A DNA stretch of 64,000 nucleotides, from contig NZ_CP048433.1 in NCBI RefSeq assembly GCF_010509075.1, forward strand, positions 1,612,001 through 1,676,000. The letters run 5' to 3'. The DNA comes from Collinsella aerofaciens ATCC 25986. GTDB taxonomy: Bacteria; Actinomycetota; Coriobacteriia; Coriobacteriales; Coriobacteriaceae. Positions 17,939-53,287 of this stretch are shown here, piece by piece (the first letter of the stretch is position 1; the number at the start of each line of letters is the position of its first letter). The notes under the pieces are model-generated. The model saw only the letters and a program-made list of their open reading frames with translations, was not told the DNA's origin and did no database searches. Position numbers and translations under genes: made by a program.

Positions 17939-18152
17939 AGCTCTATCCTCGCCAATTCTTTAAGAAGCCTTTACGTTTCCGTGTAATTCCCGTCCATTAT
18001 CGCGCAGGTCGCCACTACATTGCGCCACACCGCCGCACATGCGCGTTAATATGGCTGGTTGTTGTGCGCAGCCCGCAAATGCAGTGCATATTTAGGTAAC
18101 AATCGGGTAAACCCCCGCTTTCGTAGGTTTTAAGTTTGTGAGGAGTCTCAGC

Positions 18153-20453
18153 ATGTTCGCTGCCGCCATCTCGCTCGTCGGTCTTGCGGCGACCGTCTAC
18201 CTTGTTTTGCGCGAGGCCAAGGCCATTCGCGCTCAGTCGGGCACCGTCACCAAGGGCGCCTTCGCCTGGAGCGTCGCCTTTGGCCTGTTCCAGCTCTTTT
18301 TGACAGTCTGGGGCGCTATTGGCCTCGTGGCACAGAACGAGCCGCTCGCCTTTGTGATGCTCATCCTGACCAACGCCATTCTCACCAGCTGCGCCTGGGC
18401 AAGCATCGCCCGCGATCGCATCGCACCGCGCGTCTTTGCATTCGCCTCGGCCGACGCCCCCGCCCCCACGGGCAAGCTCGCCCGCCTGCGCGGCGCCTTT
18501 GTGGGCAAGCCGCTTGTCGCCGCCGTGCTGTGCCTGCTGCTTGCCGGCGTCTTTGCGCTGCTGGGCATGGAGGTCTCGTCCAACCACGACTTTACCTGGG
18601 TCTACCCCCTGTGCATCCTGCTCGAGTTGGCCATCATCACCACGCTCATGGCCGGCCTATTCTTCCTGTTCCAGCGCCACGGCGCAGCTCCGGCCGTCCT
18701 GGCCTTCGCCCTCTTTGTCCTGGGCATTGCCGAGTTCTTCGTCATCACGTTTAAATCCATGCCCATCCAGCCGGGCGACCTCTCGGCCATCTCCACCGCC
18801 GCCGCGGTCGCCGGCAACGGCTACACCTTCTCGATCTCGCTGTTCTGCGTGCTATCCATGGGCTTTACCGCCATCTCGATGCTGCTGTGCGAGTACGCCG
18901 GCATCGTGGCGCCGCACCGCCAGAAGGGTGCCGCCAACGCCAAGCGCATGCTGCTCATCAACCTGCTCGTTGCCGTGCTGTGCCTGGGCGGCGTGACCGC
19001 ACACGTCACACTCATCGACTACTACAACACCCTCGGCATCACCGTCTACACCTGGCGCCCGCTCGAGAGCTACTGGCGCGAGGGCTACCTGCCCGCTTTC
19101 ATTAGCGCAGCGCAGTCCATCAAGCCGCCCAAACCCGCCGACTACTCCGTCGACGATGCCAAGGCCACGCTCAAAAAGTACGCCAAGGCCTACGACAAGT
19201 CCGACGCGGCCAAGAGCGACGAGCGCGCCGCCGCAAAGGAGCAGTTCGACAGCGAGAAGCCCACGGTCATCGCCATCATGAACGAGACCTTCTCGGATCT
19301 GTCGATCTACCAGAACATGCGCGCCGGCTACGAAGGCCCGCAGTACTTTAAGAACCTGTCCAACTGCCTCAGCCGCGGCAAGCTCTACGTGAGCGCCTAC
19401 GGCGGCGGCACCGCCAATACCGAGTTTGAGTTTATGACCGGCAACTCCATGGCCAACCTGGGCTCGGGCGTGTATCCGTACACCATCTACAACATGGAGA
19501 CGACCGGGAACCTGGCAGAGCAGTTCAAGTCGCTCGGATATTCCACCACGGCCATGCACCCCAACCACGCCACCAACTGGAACCGCGAAAACGTCTATAA
19601 GGACTTTGGCTTTGACCAGTTCCTGTCCATCAACGATTTCCAGGGCGCCGATACCCTGCGCGGGATGGTGACCGACCAGGCTACCTACGACAAGATTCTT
19701 GAGCTGCTCGACCAGAACGCCGATCCTCAGTTTATCTTCGACGTGACCATGCAGAACCACTCGGGCTACGACACGGGCCTGCTGCCGGTCGATAAGCAGA
19801 TGCATCTGAATATCGACACGACCGACCTGGACGCCAAGACCGTCGAGGACGGCACGCTGTCCGATGTCGACGAGTATGTCTCGTGCATCGAGCAGTCCGA
19901 TCAGGCGCTGCGCTACTTCCTCAACGCCTTGAGCAAGCTCGACCGCAAGGTAGTCGTGGTGTTCTGGGGCGATCACCAGCCGTTCTTCCCGTCCAAGTTC
20001 AATGACAAGTGGTTTACCGGCGAGGACGACGCCACCCACCAGGAGCGCTTGTGGCAGACCGACTACATCATCTGGGCCAACTACGACGTTGCCGGCTGCG
20101 ACCAGACGAGCGAGACCGACGACCTGTCCACCAACTACCTGTCCACCCAACTTATGCAGCTGATCGGCGCACCCCTCTCCGACTACCAGAAGGCGCACAT
20201 GACGCTGCGCGAGTCGCTGCCCGCCATCAACTCGGTGGGCTACGAGGACGCCAGCCTGCGCTGGGCGCTCTCCTCCAACGTCACCGGTGACGACGACGCC
20301 GCAGCAGCCGCCACCAAGGCGCGCGAGGATTACGCCAAAATGCAGTATTACGAGATGTTCCGCGACGGCAAGAACGTGTACACCGAGCACTTCCAGACCG
20401 AGGCCAACGAGACCGACCCCAACTTGGCACCGGGTACGACCAAGATCAAGTAG
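18153..20453 (+). CDS. LTA synthase-like sulfatase-family membrane protein
   Basis: Membrane-anchored phosphotransferase of the LtaS/MdoB type, 766 residues. The N-terminal half has about eight hydrophobic helices; the C-terminal extracellular domain carries the alkaline-phosphatase-fold metal site: the Glu of IAIMNETFSDLS, the likely catalytic Thr in GGGTANTEFEFMTG, and the Asp-His of WGDHQPFFP. The ATG at 18153 has GAGGAG eight bases upstream. Family members add glycerol phosphate or phosphoethanolamine to lipid- or polysaccharide-bound acceptors; the acceptor here cannot be told. It has an insertion-rich loop after the catalytic Thr and a charged C-terminus. Directly downstream lies the conserved-core palindrome P1. 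Confidence 0.87.
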   Translation: MFAAAISLVGLAATVYLVLREAKAIRAQSGTVTKGAFAWSVAFGLFQLFLTVWGAIGLVAQNEPLAFVMLILTNAILTSCAWASIARDRIAPRVFAFASADAPAPTGKLARLRGAFVGKPLVAAVLCLLLAGVFALLGMEVSSNHDFTWVYPLCILLELAIITTLMAGLFFLFQRHGAAPAVLAFALFVLGIAEFFVITFKSMPIQPGDLSAISTAAAVAGNGYTFSISLFCVLSMGFTAISMLLCEYAGIVAPHRQKGAANAKRMLLINLLVAVLCLGGVTAHVTLIDYYNTLGITVYTWRPLESYWREGYLPAFISAAQSIKPPKPADYSVDDAKATLKKYAKAYDKSDAAKSDERAAAKEQFDSEKPTVIAIMNETFSDLSIYQNMRAGYEGPQYFKNLSNCLSRGKLYVSAYGGGTANTEFEFMTGNSMANLGSGVYPYTIYNMETTGNLAEQFKSLGYSTTAMHPNHATNWNRENVYKDFGFDQFLSINDFQGADTLRGMVTDQATYDKILELLDQNADPQFIFDVTMQNHSGYDTGLLPVDKQMHLNIDTTDLDAKTVEDGTLSDVDEYVSCIEQSDQALRYFLNALSKLDRKVVVVFWGDHQPFFPSKFNDKWFTGEDDATHQERLWQTDYIIWANYDVAGCDQTSETDDLSTNYLSTQLMQLIGAPLSDYQKAHMTLRESLPAINSVGYEDASLRWALSSNVTGDDDAAAAATKAREDYAKMQYYEMFRDGKNVYTEHFQTEANETDPNLAPGTTKIK

Positions 20454-20480: not shown

Positions 20481-20610
20481 CGTCTGTCCGGGCGGAGGTA
20501 TGTAAGGTTCCCTGCTCGGACAGTCCTGCGCAAGACGGAGGCCACATTAAGTGGCCTCCTTTGCGTGCGGAACTCGCGATGAACCTTACATACCTCCGCC
20601 CGGACAGACG
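20481..20610 (+). repeat. Conserved-core palindrome P1
   Basis: Two 30-base arms (20481-20510 and 20581-20610) are perfectly complementary. The 70-nt core between them contains CTCGGACAGTCCTGCGCAAG, an inner hairpin GGAGGCCACATTAAGTGGCC, and TTGCGTGCGGAACTCGCG. The core is nearly identical, in inverted orientation, to that at 25797-25925, while the arms have unrelated sequence. It starts 27 bp after the sulfatase stop codon. Confidence 0.85.
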
Positions 20611-20663: not shown

Positions 20664-20700
20664 TGAAGGCCACGTTATGTGGCCTTCTTTGTTTGCGGAA
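20664..20700 (+). repeat. Partial copy of the P-element inner hairpin
   Basis: GAAGGCCACGTTATGTGGCC followed by TTCTTTGTTTGCGGAA repeats the inner hairpin and following segment of the P1/P2 core without the long arms. It runs straight into the first unit of the hairpin array. It could act as a terminator. Confidence 0.6.
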
Positions 20701-25796: not shown

Positions 25797-25925
25797 CGTC
25801 CTCCCGGACGGCGGGGCACGAAGTTCATCGCGAGTTCCGCACGCAAAGAAGGCCACTTAATGTGGCCTTCGTCTTGCGCAGGACTGTAGAGCAGGGAACT
25901 TCGTGCCCCGACGCCCGGGAGGACG
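25797..25925 (-). repeat. Conserved-core palindrome P2 (inverted relative to P1)
   Basis: Arms 25797-25826 and 25896-25925 pair with two mismatches in 30. The core, read on the minus strand, is almost identical to that of P1 (GCAGTCCTGCGCAAGACG-type left part replaced only at GGA/TA, inner hairpin AGGCCACATTAAGTGGCCT, TGCGTGCGGAACTCGCGAT). The arms share only their last bases (TTC / GAA) with those of P1. It begins 42 bp after the minus-strand flavodoxin stop codon. Confidence 0.85.
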
Positions 25926-30526: not shown

Positions 30527-30748
30527 GTATAGGCGCTCCTTATCATCATCTCTCTTCAATCTGATTCATGATAGTACGGAGAGCCCTGGAGATATGAAAT
30601 CAACTCGTCACAGAACAAGCCCCCGAAACAATCAGGAAACTAGGCACAGAGACAAAGCACCCGAACATGTTTTGGCAAAGCCAACGAGCAGCACTAGACA
30701 AGGGATTAATTGTTCAGATTAACGCGCCTCTACGGGCGCATTTTGGAC

Positions 30749-30853
30749 GATGTGGTCCCGGTGCCGGCGGGCTGTTTGGTAGTCGAGCGATTCCGCAGGC
30801 AAAGCCGAGGACCAGCGAGACACCAAACAGCCCGCCGGCACCGGGACCACATC
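30749..30853 (-). repeat. Conserved-core palindrome P4
   Basis: Arms 30749-30780 and 30822-30853 are perfectly complementary over 32 bases. The 41-nt core, read on the plus strand, contains GATTCCGCAGGCAAAGCCGA and GGACC, matching the GTTCCGCACGCAAAG and CCGAG parts of the P1/P2 core but without the inner hairpin. It begins 12 bp past the 3' end of the SRP RNA, in the same orientation relative to its upstream gene as the other P elements. Confidence 0.8.
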
Positions 30854-30865
30854 GCGGCACCAAAA

Positions 30866-31020: not shown

Positions 31021-31059
31021 GGCAGCTAATTTAGGACGGGGCCAAAAGACCACTTTTGA

Positions 31060-31126
31060 GTTGCGGTGGAATAGTTCCTGTTTTTGCCGCCTGAGCCGCC
31101 AAACAGGAACTATTCCACCGCAACTT
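31060..31126. repeat. Palindromic repeat family S, copy 2
   Basis: Perfect arms of 24-25 bases (AGTTGCGGTGGAATAGTTCC on one side, its complement on the other) around a GC-rich loop. It ends 15 bp before the stop codon of the minus-strand fusion gene, as copy 1 does for rlmKL and kdpE. Confidence 0.75.
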
Positions 31127-34590: not shown

Positions 34591-34715
34591 GGCCCGAGGG
34601 CAACCTTCCTTTCCGGCGCACTCCGCAGGACGAAAGAACCTCCGCCGCACGAAGTGCGCAGCGGAGGTTCTTTCATGTCCGAGGACGCGCCGGAAAGGAA
34701 GGTTGCCCTCGGGCC
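34591..34715 (-). repeat. Conserved-core palindrome P3
   Basis: Arms 34591-34619 and 34687-34715 are perfectly complementary over 29 bases. The core has ACTCCGCAGGACGAAAG on the left and TGTCCGAGGAC on the right around an inner hairpin (AAGAACCTCCGC / GCGGAGGTTCTT) whose sequence differs from that of P1/P2. It starts 17 bp after the minus-strand ilvE stop, oriented like the other P elements relative to its upstream gene. Confidence 0.8.
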
Positions 34716-53109: not shown

Positions 53110-53241
53110 CTACTTCTTCCGATATCGGCGGTTACGACTCGTCGATGAACCCATTACTTCGATGAGCCCTTTATCCGTCATTTTTGGCAGATGGTAGCTG
53201 ACGGACGAATTTTGGCATTCCGTCTCTCTAAAACAAGGCGC
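53110..53241 (-). pseudogene. C-terminal remnant of a winged-helix protein
   Basis: Forty-three codons open on the minus strand read FRETECQNSSVSYHLPKMTD and then KGLIEVMGSSTSRNRRYRKK before TAG. SSVSYHLPKMTDKGLIEV is a convincing recognition helix and wing of a winged-helix domain. The frame is closed upstream by a TGA at 53242-53244 inside the long palindrome, with no start codon, so only the tail of a gene survives. Confidence 0.5.
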
Positions 53242-53287
53242 TCATCTCTCTAACTTTAGAGAGATGAGCGCCTTGTTTTAGAGAGAC
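53222..53287. repeat. 31-bp perfect palindrome in a cluster of TCTCTCTAA motifs
   Basis: Arms 53222-53252 and 53257-53287 are exactly complementary around a four-base loop. Each arm begins and ends with the octamer GTCTCTCT or ATCTCTCTA. Further copies of the motif (TCTCTCTAA or its complement TTAGAGAGA) occur singly at about 53080-53095, 53296, 53332 and 53352-53395. The 782-bp gap 52814-53595 has no intact gene. Confidence 0.7.

Follow-up and report, generated by a model that had tools for sequence, protein, structure and literature searches.

The window analyzed here, a 64,000-nucleotide stretch of the Collinsella aerofaciens ATCC 25986 genome, contains four long inverted repeats, E1 to E4, each lying just beyond the 3' end of a gene. 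E1 is on the plus strand and consists of a left arm (20481–20510) that begins 27 bp past the stop codon of the gene at 18138–20453, a core (20511–20580), and a right arm (20581–20610), with both arms 30 bp long and perfectly complementary. The E1 core is in the sense (F) orientation and reads CAGTCCTGCGCAAGAC-[GGAGGCCAC attaa GTGGCCTCC]-TTTGCGTGCGGAAC, the F strand being the one that reads CAGTCCT...TGCGGAAC. The other three elements are on the minus strand. E2 (25797–25925) has a core at 25827–25895 and 30-bp arms at 25797–25826 and 25896–25925 with 2 mismatches, 42 bp past the flavodoxin stop codon; E3 (30748–30854) has perfect 33-bp arms (30748–30780 and 30822–30854) around a short core, 21 bp beyond ffs; and E4 (34591–34715) has perfect 29-bp arms (34591–34619 and 34687–34715) around a divergent core with a long inner stem, 16 bp beyond ilvE, a gene name taken from the original prediction. 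These arm lengths, mismatches, and gaps agree with that prediction, which had placed the elements 12–42 bp 3' of a gene, except that E3 is one base wider on each side. On the plus strand, 54 bp beyond E1, lies an armless 3' half of a core (20665–20700; the hairpin and TTTGTTTGCGGAA), which gives a weak partial match to the covariance model described below (E 0.19) and is probably the remnant of an older element.

Each of the four elements folds into a single long hairpin with a z-score between −12.2 and −16.8, and for each element none of 200 shuffles folds as well. The real window yields 7 counts of inverted repeats with at least 22 paired bases (largest 33), whereas none appeared in 30 shuffled windows (largest 16) in which two-base blocks were shuffled within 400-base pieces. 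When an arm was joined to the partner arm of another element, an arm score of 14 was reached in 1 of 454 combinations. The window shuffles and the swapped partners together rule out a chance origin of the paired arms.

The arms enclose a conserved, asymmetric core of the form CAGTCCT-[stem]-TGCGGAAC. Read inward, an element consists of the arm, then a short linker, in whose place some subtypes have a mismatch at a constant position, then a core helix, and finally a variable stem. The core helix, as read from the sequences and from the E1–E4 folds, is predicted to pair AGU-CC with GG-A-ACU, leaving a bulged A and a small internal loop. The inner stem is as short as a few pairs in some copies, and its mismatches comprise 9 A-C, 5 G-T, and 5 others. 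The proposal that all four window elements share one core is confirmed with a refinement: E1 and E2 have near-identical cores of the main type and E3 keeps TTCCGCA-N-GCAAAG, but the E3 core is short and has no inner stem, and the E4 core is more divergent. E3 and E4 have in common a TCC-TC..TGC-GGA internal loop, and a second E4-type copy is present at about position 1981425 of G000:C1.

The motif TTCCGCA-N-GCAAAG occurs 12 times in the whole genome (2.46 Mb, 3 contigs) and never when read backwards, and it is found in 34 of 43 genomes of the genus, this genome included. A covariance model built from 11 copies identified 28 places in the genome at E ≤ 0.0012 and, more weakly, E3 (E 0.009). Divergence puts E4 beyond the model's reach; added separately, it brings the known copies to 30, all of which were inspected individually. 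With stricter filters than in the own-genome search and a sample of matches inspected, the model matched 61 of 65 family members at E 0.001 and 142 of 346 class members at E 0.0001. Inspected copies from other genera and families retain the core while the arms and inner stem differ (two copies, L206 and L208, were not resolved), and three copies from other orders of Coriobacteriia (L211, L218, and L222) likewise keep it. The simplest core, GACAGTCCT-[10–40 bases]-TGCGGAACTC, is present in 17 of 38 class members versus 1 of 358 other genomes of the phylum, the single exception being a 68% complete genome (G574) whose match is possibly contamination; read backwards, the same pattern occurs in 1 of 396 genomes. 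A strict core pattern is found in at least 120 stretches of named genomes, and among the matches listed all 80 belong to Collinsella or Coriobacteriaceae. The four window elements are therefore members of a dispersed family with relatives across the class Coriobacteriia, and the core motifs survive the wider comparison, in further families within the order and, beyond it, in three genomes of the class. Carriage by phages or plasmids was considered and rejected. No phage match was found for the family, and the one pattern match among viral contigs has no arms and is taken as chance. The only plasmid record with matches (12 places) is NZ_OY725717.1 in PLSDB, a 900-kb Collinsella aerofaciens “plasmid 6” that carries rpsL, fusA, thrB, and tsaD and thus looks like a piece of the chromosome.

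To describe the arms across the family, we profiled the best copy from each of 80 loci at an arm score of at least 14; 12 of the 92 locus groups had no copy above this score. The median arm length is 28 bp. Pairing between the two arms is 93–98% from 0 to about 20 bp and falls to chance level near 40 bp; over 20 positions, with all 304 regex hits included, it is 0.918. Identity between the arms of different loci is 29–39%, where composition alone predicts 0.349 for the 12–27 bp part. The inner, AT-richer arm bases show a slight excess (29–30% versus about 0.26 predicted by composition), and the innermost three bases are 34–36% identical between loci. Arm sequence shared across loci amounts to six matches of 16–32 bp, some of which are perhaps unjoined orthologs. 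The 5' arm is 78–80% GC at 12–26 bp, compared with 50–59% from 33 bp outward, and it is G-rich (0.485 G, 0.302 C). Within the best-scoring length (arms about 31 bp; 50 locus groups), arms are perfect in 96 of 157 distinct elements and carry at most one mismatch in 127. High pairing, GC richness, and near-composition identity together indicate that the arms carry strength and complementarity with almost no shared sequence, as the original prediction had held in describing them as unrelated between copies yet always self-pairing.

The elements are placed at gene edges with a fixed polarity. Among 210 elements (orthologs included; arm score of at least 14; orientation anchored on the core), the CAGTCCT side has a stop codon no more than 60 bp away in 113 and a start codon in 26, together 139, with neither nearby in 71; for the opposite side the corresponding numbers are 11, 9, and 190. 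Genes were called with a home-made caller, so that a few distances are wrong (e.g., −937), and four stretches were compared with PGAP proteins. As predicted, the elements favor gene 3' ends and do so in one orientation; a second, smaller class stands before start codons. Counted as independent loci, 47 elements follow a stop codon (trailers), 43 of them at 4–46 bp and 41 at 4–27 bp, and 10 precede a start codon (leaders), 9 of them at 13–58 bp. Genes with an element directly before the start include thrB, serA, cysS, leuS, valS, and sdaA, and more distant leaders include those of rplJ, rplC, rpsL, groES, and ptsH (leader gene names were assigned by eye from the proteins). The PGAP proteins of one strain, from a table without RNA features, agree with the arrangement thrC-element-thrB, with tsaD, and with the rpsL leader; the thrB position is common to 10 genomes of the genus. 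In ATCC 25986 itself, what appears to be a single valS gene is flanked by an element at each end, both facing valS. Two pairs of elements face each other, 141 bp (L024/L036) and 94 bp (L042/L043) apart; the latter pair lies between convergent genes, with each element beside its own gene end.

Comparison of orthologs reveals that the two arms of an element change in concert. Across 659 ortholog pairs with coding flanks at least 90% identical, the identity of the left arm and that of the right arm are correlated at 0.962. Self-pairing in this set is 0.962 versus 0.839 for crossed arms, the former figure being biased upward because the 29 of 304 regex hits left out for an arm score below 14 mix chance hits with true non-pairing recombinants. 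Mean identities are 0.955 for coding sequence, 0.94 for the core, 0.884 and 0.882 for the arms, and 0.847 for the 3' flank. The arms thus drift about as fast as adjacent intergenic DNA, but do so together. In the 72 pairs whose arms are less than 70% identical (73 without rounding), 791 positions are compensated and 81 are otherwise changed; in pairs with arms at least 70% identical, the numbers are 232 and 152, the count having skipped 116 of 417 within-locus pairs. The cores of the 39 low-identity pairs with equal-length cores are 99% identical.

At the ffs locus (E3), the 14 sequences aligned, 10 of them distinct and with a fifteenth (L055) set aside, fall into three arm types. The E3 arms covary with a score of 0.393, compared with at most 0.093 in slid controls, so arms conserved at each locus without covariation, the outcome that would have spoken against the prediction, are not what is seen. 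Two-sided changes are present at 18 of 33 pairs and account for 50 cells versus 20.3 in shuffles, the cells counting sequences rather than events; further pair types (24) are not above the shuffled value of 22.7. Of 19 indel events in arms, 8 have a matching counterpart in the opposite arm, 7 affect one arm only, and 4 are discordant. Selection on the helix and an element that rebuilds its arms had been offered as alternatives, and the data suggest both.

Individual strains carry variant elements. Non-pairing arms are found at E1 (two distinct sequences in three strains), E3 (one), E4 (two), and further loci, and we interpret most of them as products of recombination in which the crossover fell close to the core, which is identical. 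Strain G018 (L397) has lost the 3' half of one element, and in its place stands the 5' half copied in inverted orientation over 40 bases with 0 mismatches; the arms so formed are new, perfect, and 30 bp long, they enclose a loop of 10 bases, and TGCGGAAC is destroyed. In G001 (L405, L179), the arms are of a type that other strains also have there, but the core between them is inverted; this is the only such site among 300 elements compared, the other flagged pairs being elements that face each other. A deletion in G033 (L411) leaves part of the left arm, and the element in G025 (L395) has no inner stem. At L030, the neighboring gene's final 18 coding bases recur in inverted form past the far arm in 11 of 11 strains (0 to 3 mismatches, counted by eye), which is best explained by inverted copying. 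Of 20 strains, 6 carry E2 (in one of these a contig end interrupts it), and the other 14 have a U-tract terminator at the site; the flavodoxin gene itself is 90–97% identical in 19 genomes of the genus. This one present/absent locus is not a simple insertion. Since non-pairing, half, or deleted elements exist in strains, a given copy is not essential.

Two further arrangements were noted among the variants. At the L032 locus, L374 and L379 (strains G017 and G001) have a different palindromic repeat, roughly 150–200 bp long, in place of the element's 5' half; it joins near the hairpin apex, and the 3' halves of the two strains differ. L365 and L368 (at the locus of L031) have a complete element followed downstream by a 3' half of the other allelic type, joined at GGAACTC, an arrangement suggestive of recurrent recombination that breaks within the core.

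The explanation we favor, to which we give slightly less than an even chance, is a family of gene-edge foldbacks in which a factor reads the core, the arms form a GC-rich helix renewed by template switching and selection, and the element serves as a boundary, likeliest as an mRNA hairpin. The transcribed core (CUCRGACAGUCCU and UGCGGAACUCG, separated by a stem that varies in length and sequence) would pair into a short helix interrupted by an internal loop and a bulge, to be read by a putative trans-acting factor, while the arms would supply a long GC-rich helix whose sequence is almost free. After mutation or recombination, template switching would rewrite one half from the other while selection favored a stable helix, and the hairpin, situated after the stop codon or before the ribosome-binding site, would protect or mark the end of the transcript. 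The fold-back copy, the core inversion, and the concerted arms are the features of a template-switch hairpin, the events themselves being reconstructed from extant sequences. Arms that were mere copied flanks would match the flanks in GC content, which they do not, and this counts against pure flank copying; the GC enrichment beyond what copying alone predicts points to selection for a stable helix as well. We infer with good support, then, that complementarity is made and renewed by replication template switching together with such selection; that the element bounds coding segments, most likely as an mRNA hairpin, is the weaker part of this reading. Weighed against the whole are the 71 of 210 elements near no gene edge, the 11 of 19 indels that are unmatched, and one-sided changes, which are common among closer orthologs.

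The alternatives differ in how the arms arise and in which molecule is read. An ordinary selected RNA helix, maintained by independent compensatory mutations and no special copying mechanism, would give the covariation and GC-rich arms observed, and it accords with unmatched arm indels (11) outnumbering matched ones (8); it is improbable, however, given that the arms are mostly perfect (96 of 157), that a fold-back copy and a core inversion are found, and that G-U pairs are not preferred. A mobile, MITE- or REPIN-like element that makes its arms at insertion by inverted target duplication would account for a dozen unlinked sites whose cores are near-identical and whose arms are unrelated, for presence and absence at the flavodoxin site, and for the inverted copy of a coding tail at L030. 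Against it, 7 further elements (6 regions, 10 strains each) gave no clean empty site, being intact or altered in every strain apart from one deletion that leaves a partial arm, the thrB position is shared by 10 genomes, no phage match exists and the lone plasmid record looks chromosomal, and polarity toward genes is strong; we regard this origin as quite unlikely. A more speculative possibility, rather unlikely in our judgment, is that the element propagates structure: the core alone would be inherited as sequence and, when beside a gene edge, would promote template switching that rewrites neighboring DNA into a matching arm, making complementarity the heritable trait, with arms turning over indefinitely while a class-wide factor holds the core constant.

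Termination of transcription, which the original prediction had merely proposed to test, is not favored. A non-canonical, possibly bidirectional terminator would suit very stable hairpins directly past stop codons and the canonical terminator that occupies the flavodoxin site in the 14 strains without the element, but on either strand only 2 of 73 loci have 5 or more T among the 8 bases that follow the hairpin, some copies are placed in 5' leaders immediately ahead of the ribosome-binding site, and terminator-like hairpins in the own genome often stand 50–100 bp downstream (by eye), so that this role, too, is a poor prospect. A canonical Rho-independent terminator was rejected, as the GC-rich hairpin downstream of genes is present and the U-tract is missing; so were a downstream intrinsic terminator as a constant partner (31 of 82 loci versus 21 in shuffles, a weak excess) and a CTGAW motif seen by eye in own-genome flanks (28 of 82 in the 3' flank versus 19 of 82 in the 5' flank, unconvincing). 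A DNA-level site, in which a cruciform, single-strand hairpin, or polar duplex is recognised by a gene-facing nucleoid, repair, or recombination protein, is a more serious contender, although as a full account we consider it rather unlikely. Relative to the gene, the DNA has one polarity whether the element follows a stop or precedes a start, which means that the core is transcribed in opposite senses in trailers and leaders; a single RNA-binding factor could hardly read both senses, whereas a DNA site could serve at both. Arm mismatches on the F strand (61 G-T, 73 A-C, and 62 others) show no excess of G-U over A-C and hence no sign of the preference expected under RNA selection, and leader arms lean to A-C (23 versus 11 on the F strand, in non-independent copies). 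The near-perfect arms and the recombinants that break near the core also accord with a DNA site. Set against it are the core inverted in one strain, the lack of a known protein linked to the element, and gaps at gene ends that fit a ribosome footprint or a ribosome-binding site (43 of 47 trailers and 9 of 10 leaders), a size that translation would tolerate and that the RNA reading likewise predicts and is credited with. Because most gene-adjacent copies are trailers in one sense, we lean slightly, by a small margin, to the mRNA boundary element, with the DNA-level site nearly as likely.

The family resembles several known repeats in part. REP/BIME, ERIC, RUP, and Correia repeats are, like the Collinsella element, many dispersed intergenic palindromic copies, often at 3' ends, but in those repeats the palindrome sequence itself is conserved, whereas the Collinsella arms share almost no sequence and the internal core is conserved instead. 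Integron attC sites likewise keep structure over sequence and lie just after stop codons in a fixed orientation. Their layout is the opposite, with conserved outer boxes and a variable inside, where Collinsella elements are conserved inside and vary outside, and the leader class breaks the order of a cassette array.

A search of Rfam with the window matched only the small SRP RNA and a tRNA, and the six element loci searched at E ≤ 1 returned SRP RNA and six matches below the gathering score to unrelated families. The Collinsella-1 RNA motif (RF01700), which the available portion of its source describes as a structured element from Actinobacteria and the human gut (PMC2864571), has no match in the window or the six loci. 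We found no description of the family in the literature searched, which took in candidate surveys short of their supplementary alignments. According to the accessible text of one survey of structured RNAs in the human microbiome, there are 250 palindromic candidates, of which the Collinsella one is HMP2_254, 51 bp long and upstream of L7/L12 (PMC8040213); we compared it with the present element by this description rather than by sequence. A Coriobacteria L31 leader is mentioned in an excerpt of PMC7247131. Template switching is proposed, in the part of PMC8794818 consulted, to make and keep perfect-arm hairpins with multi-base compensatory changes, and an extract of PMC8604942 names arm homogenisation and spacer inversion among its outcomes. 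As those extracts present it, template switching is a mutational mechanism rather than a repeat family with a shared core; the renewal of Collinsella arms matches it.

The element is thus genome-wide in a major gut lineage and has no Rfam family. With about thirty copies per genome, differing arms, and many sequenced strains, it constitutes a replicated natural experiment on the origin and upkeep of palindromes, in which what appear to be fold-back copying, core inversion, mismatched recombinants, and deletion can be seen side by side in single strains. A binding factor for the core, if one exists, would be new, and the genes at which it acts would include ribosomal, tRNA-synthetase, and amino-acid genes.

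The window also contains inverted repeats of other kinds. Near ffs, at 31059–31125, lies a different perfect inverted repeat with 25-bp arms and a 17-base loop (AGTTGCGGTGGAATAG...), and a similar AAGTTGCGGTGAAATAG palindrome is found downstream of the ptsH-side element (L037 and several orthologs); the type may represent a second palindrome family, one with conserved outer arms. Two others are without the Collinsella-element core: a perfect 31-bp inverted repeat with a 4-base loop at 53222–53287, and one at 1157–1312 with 31-bp arms (3 mismatches) and a 94-base loop.
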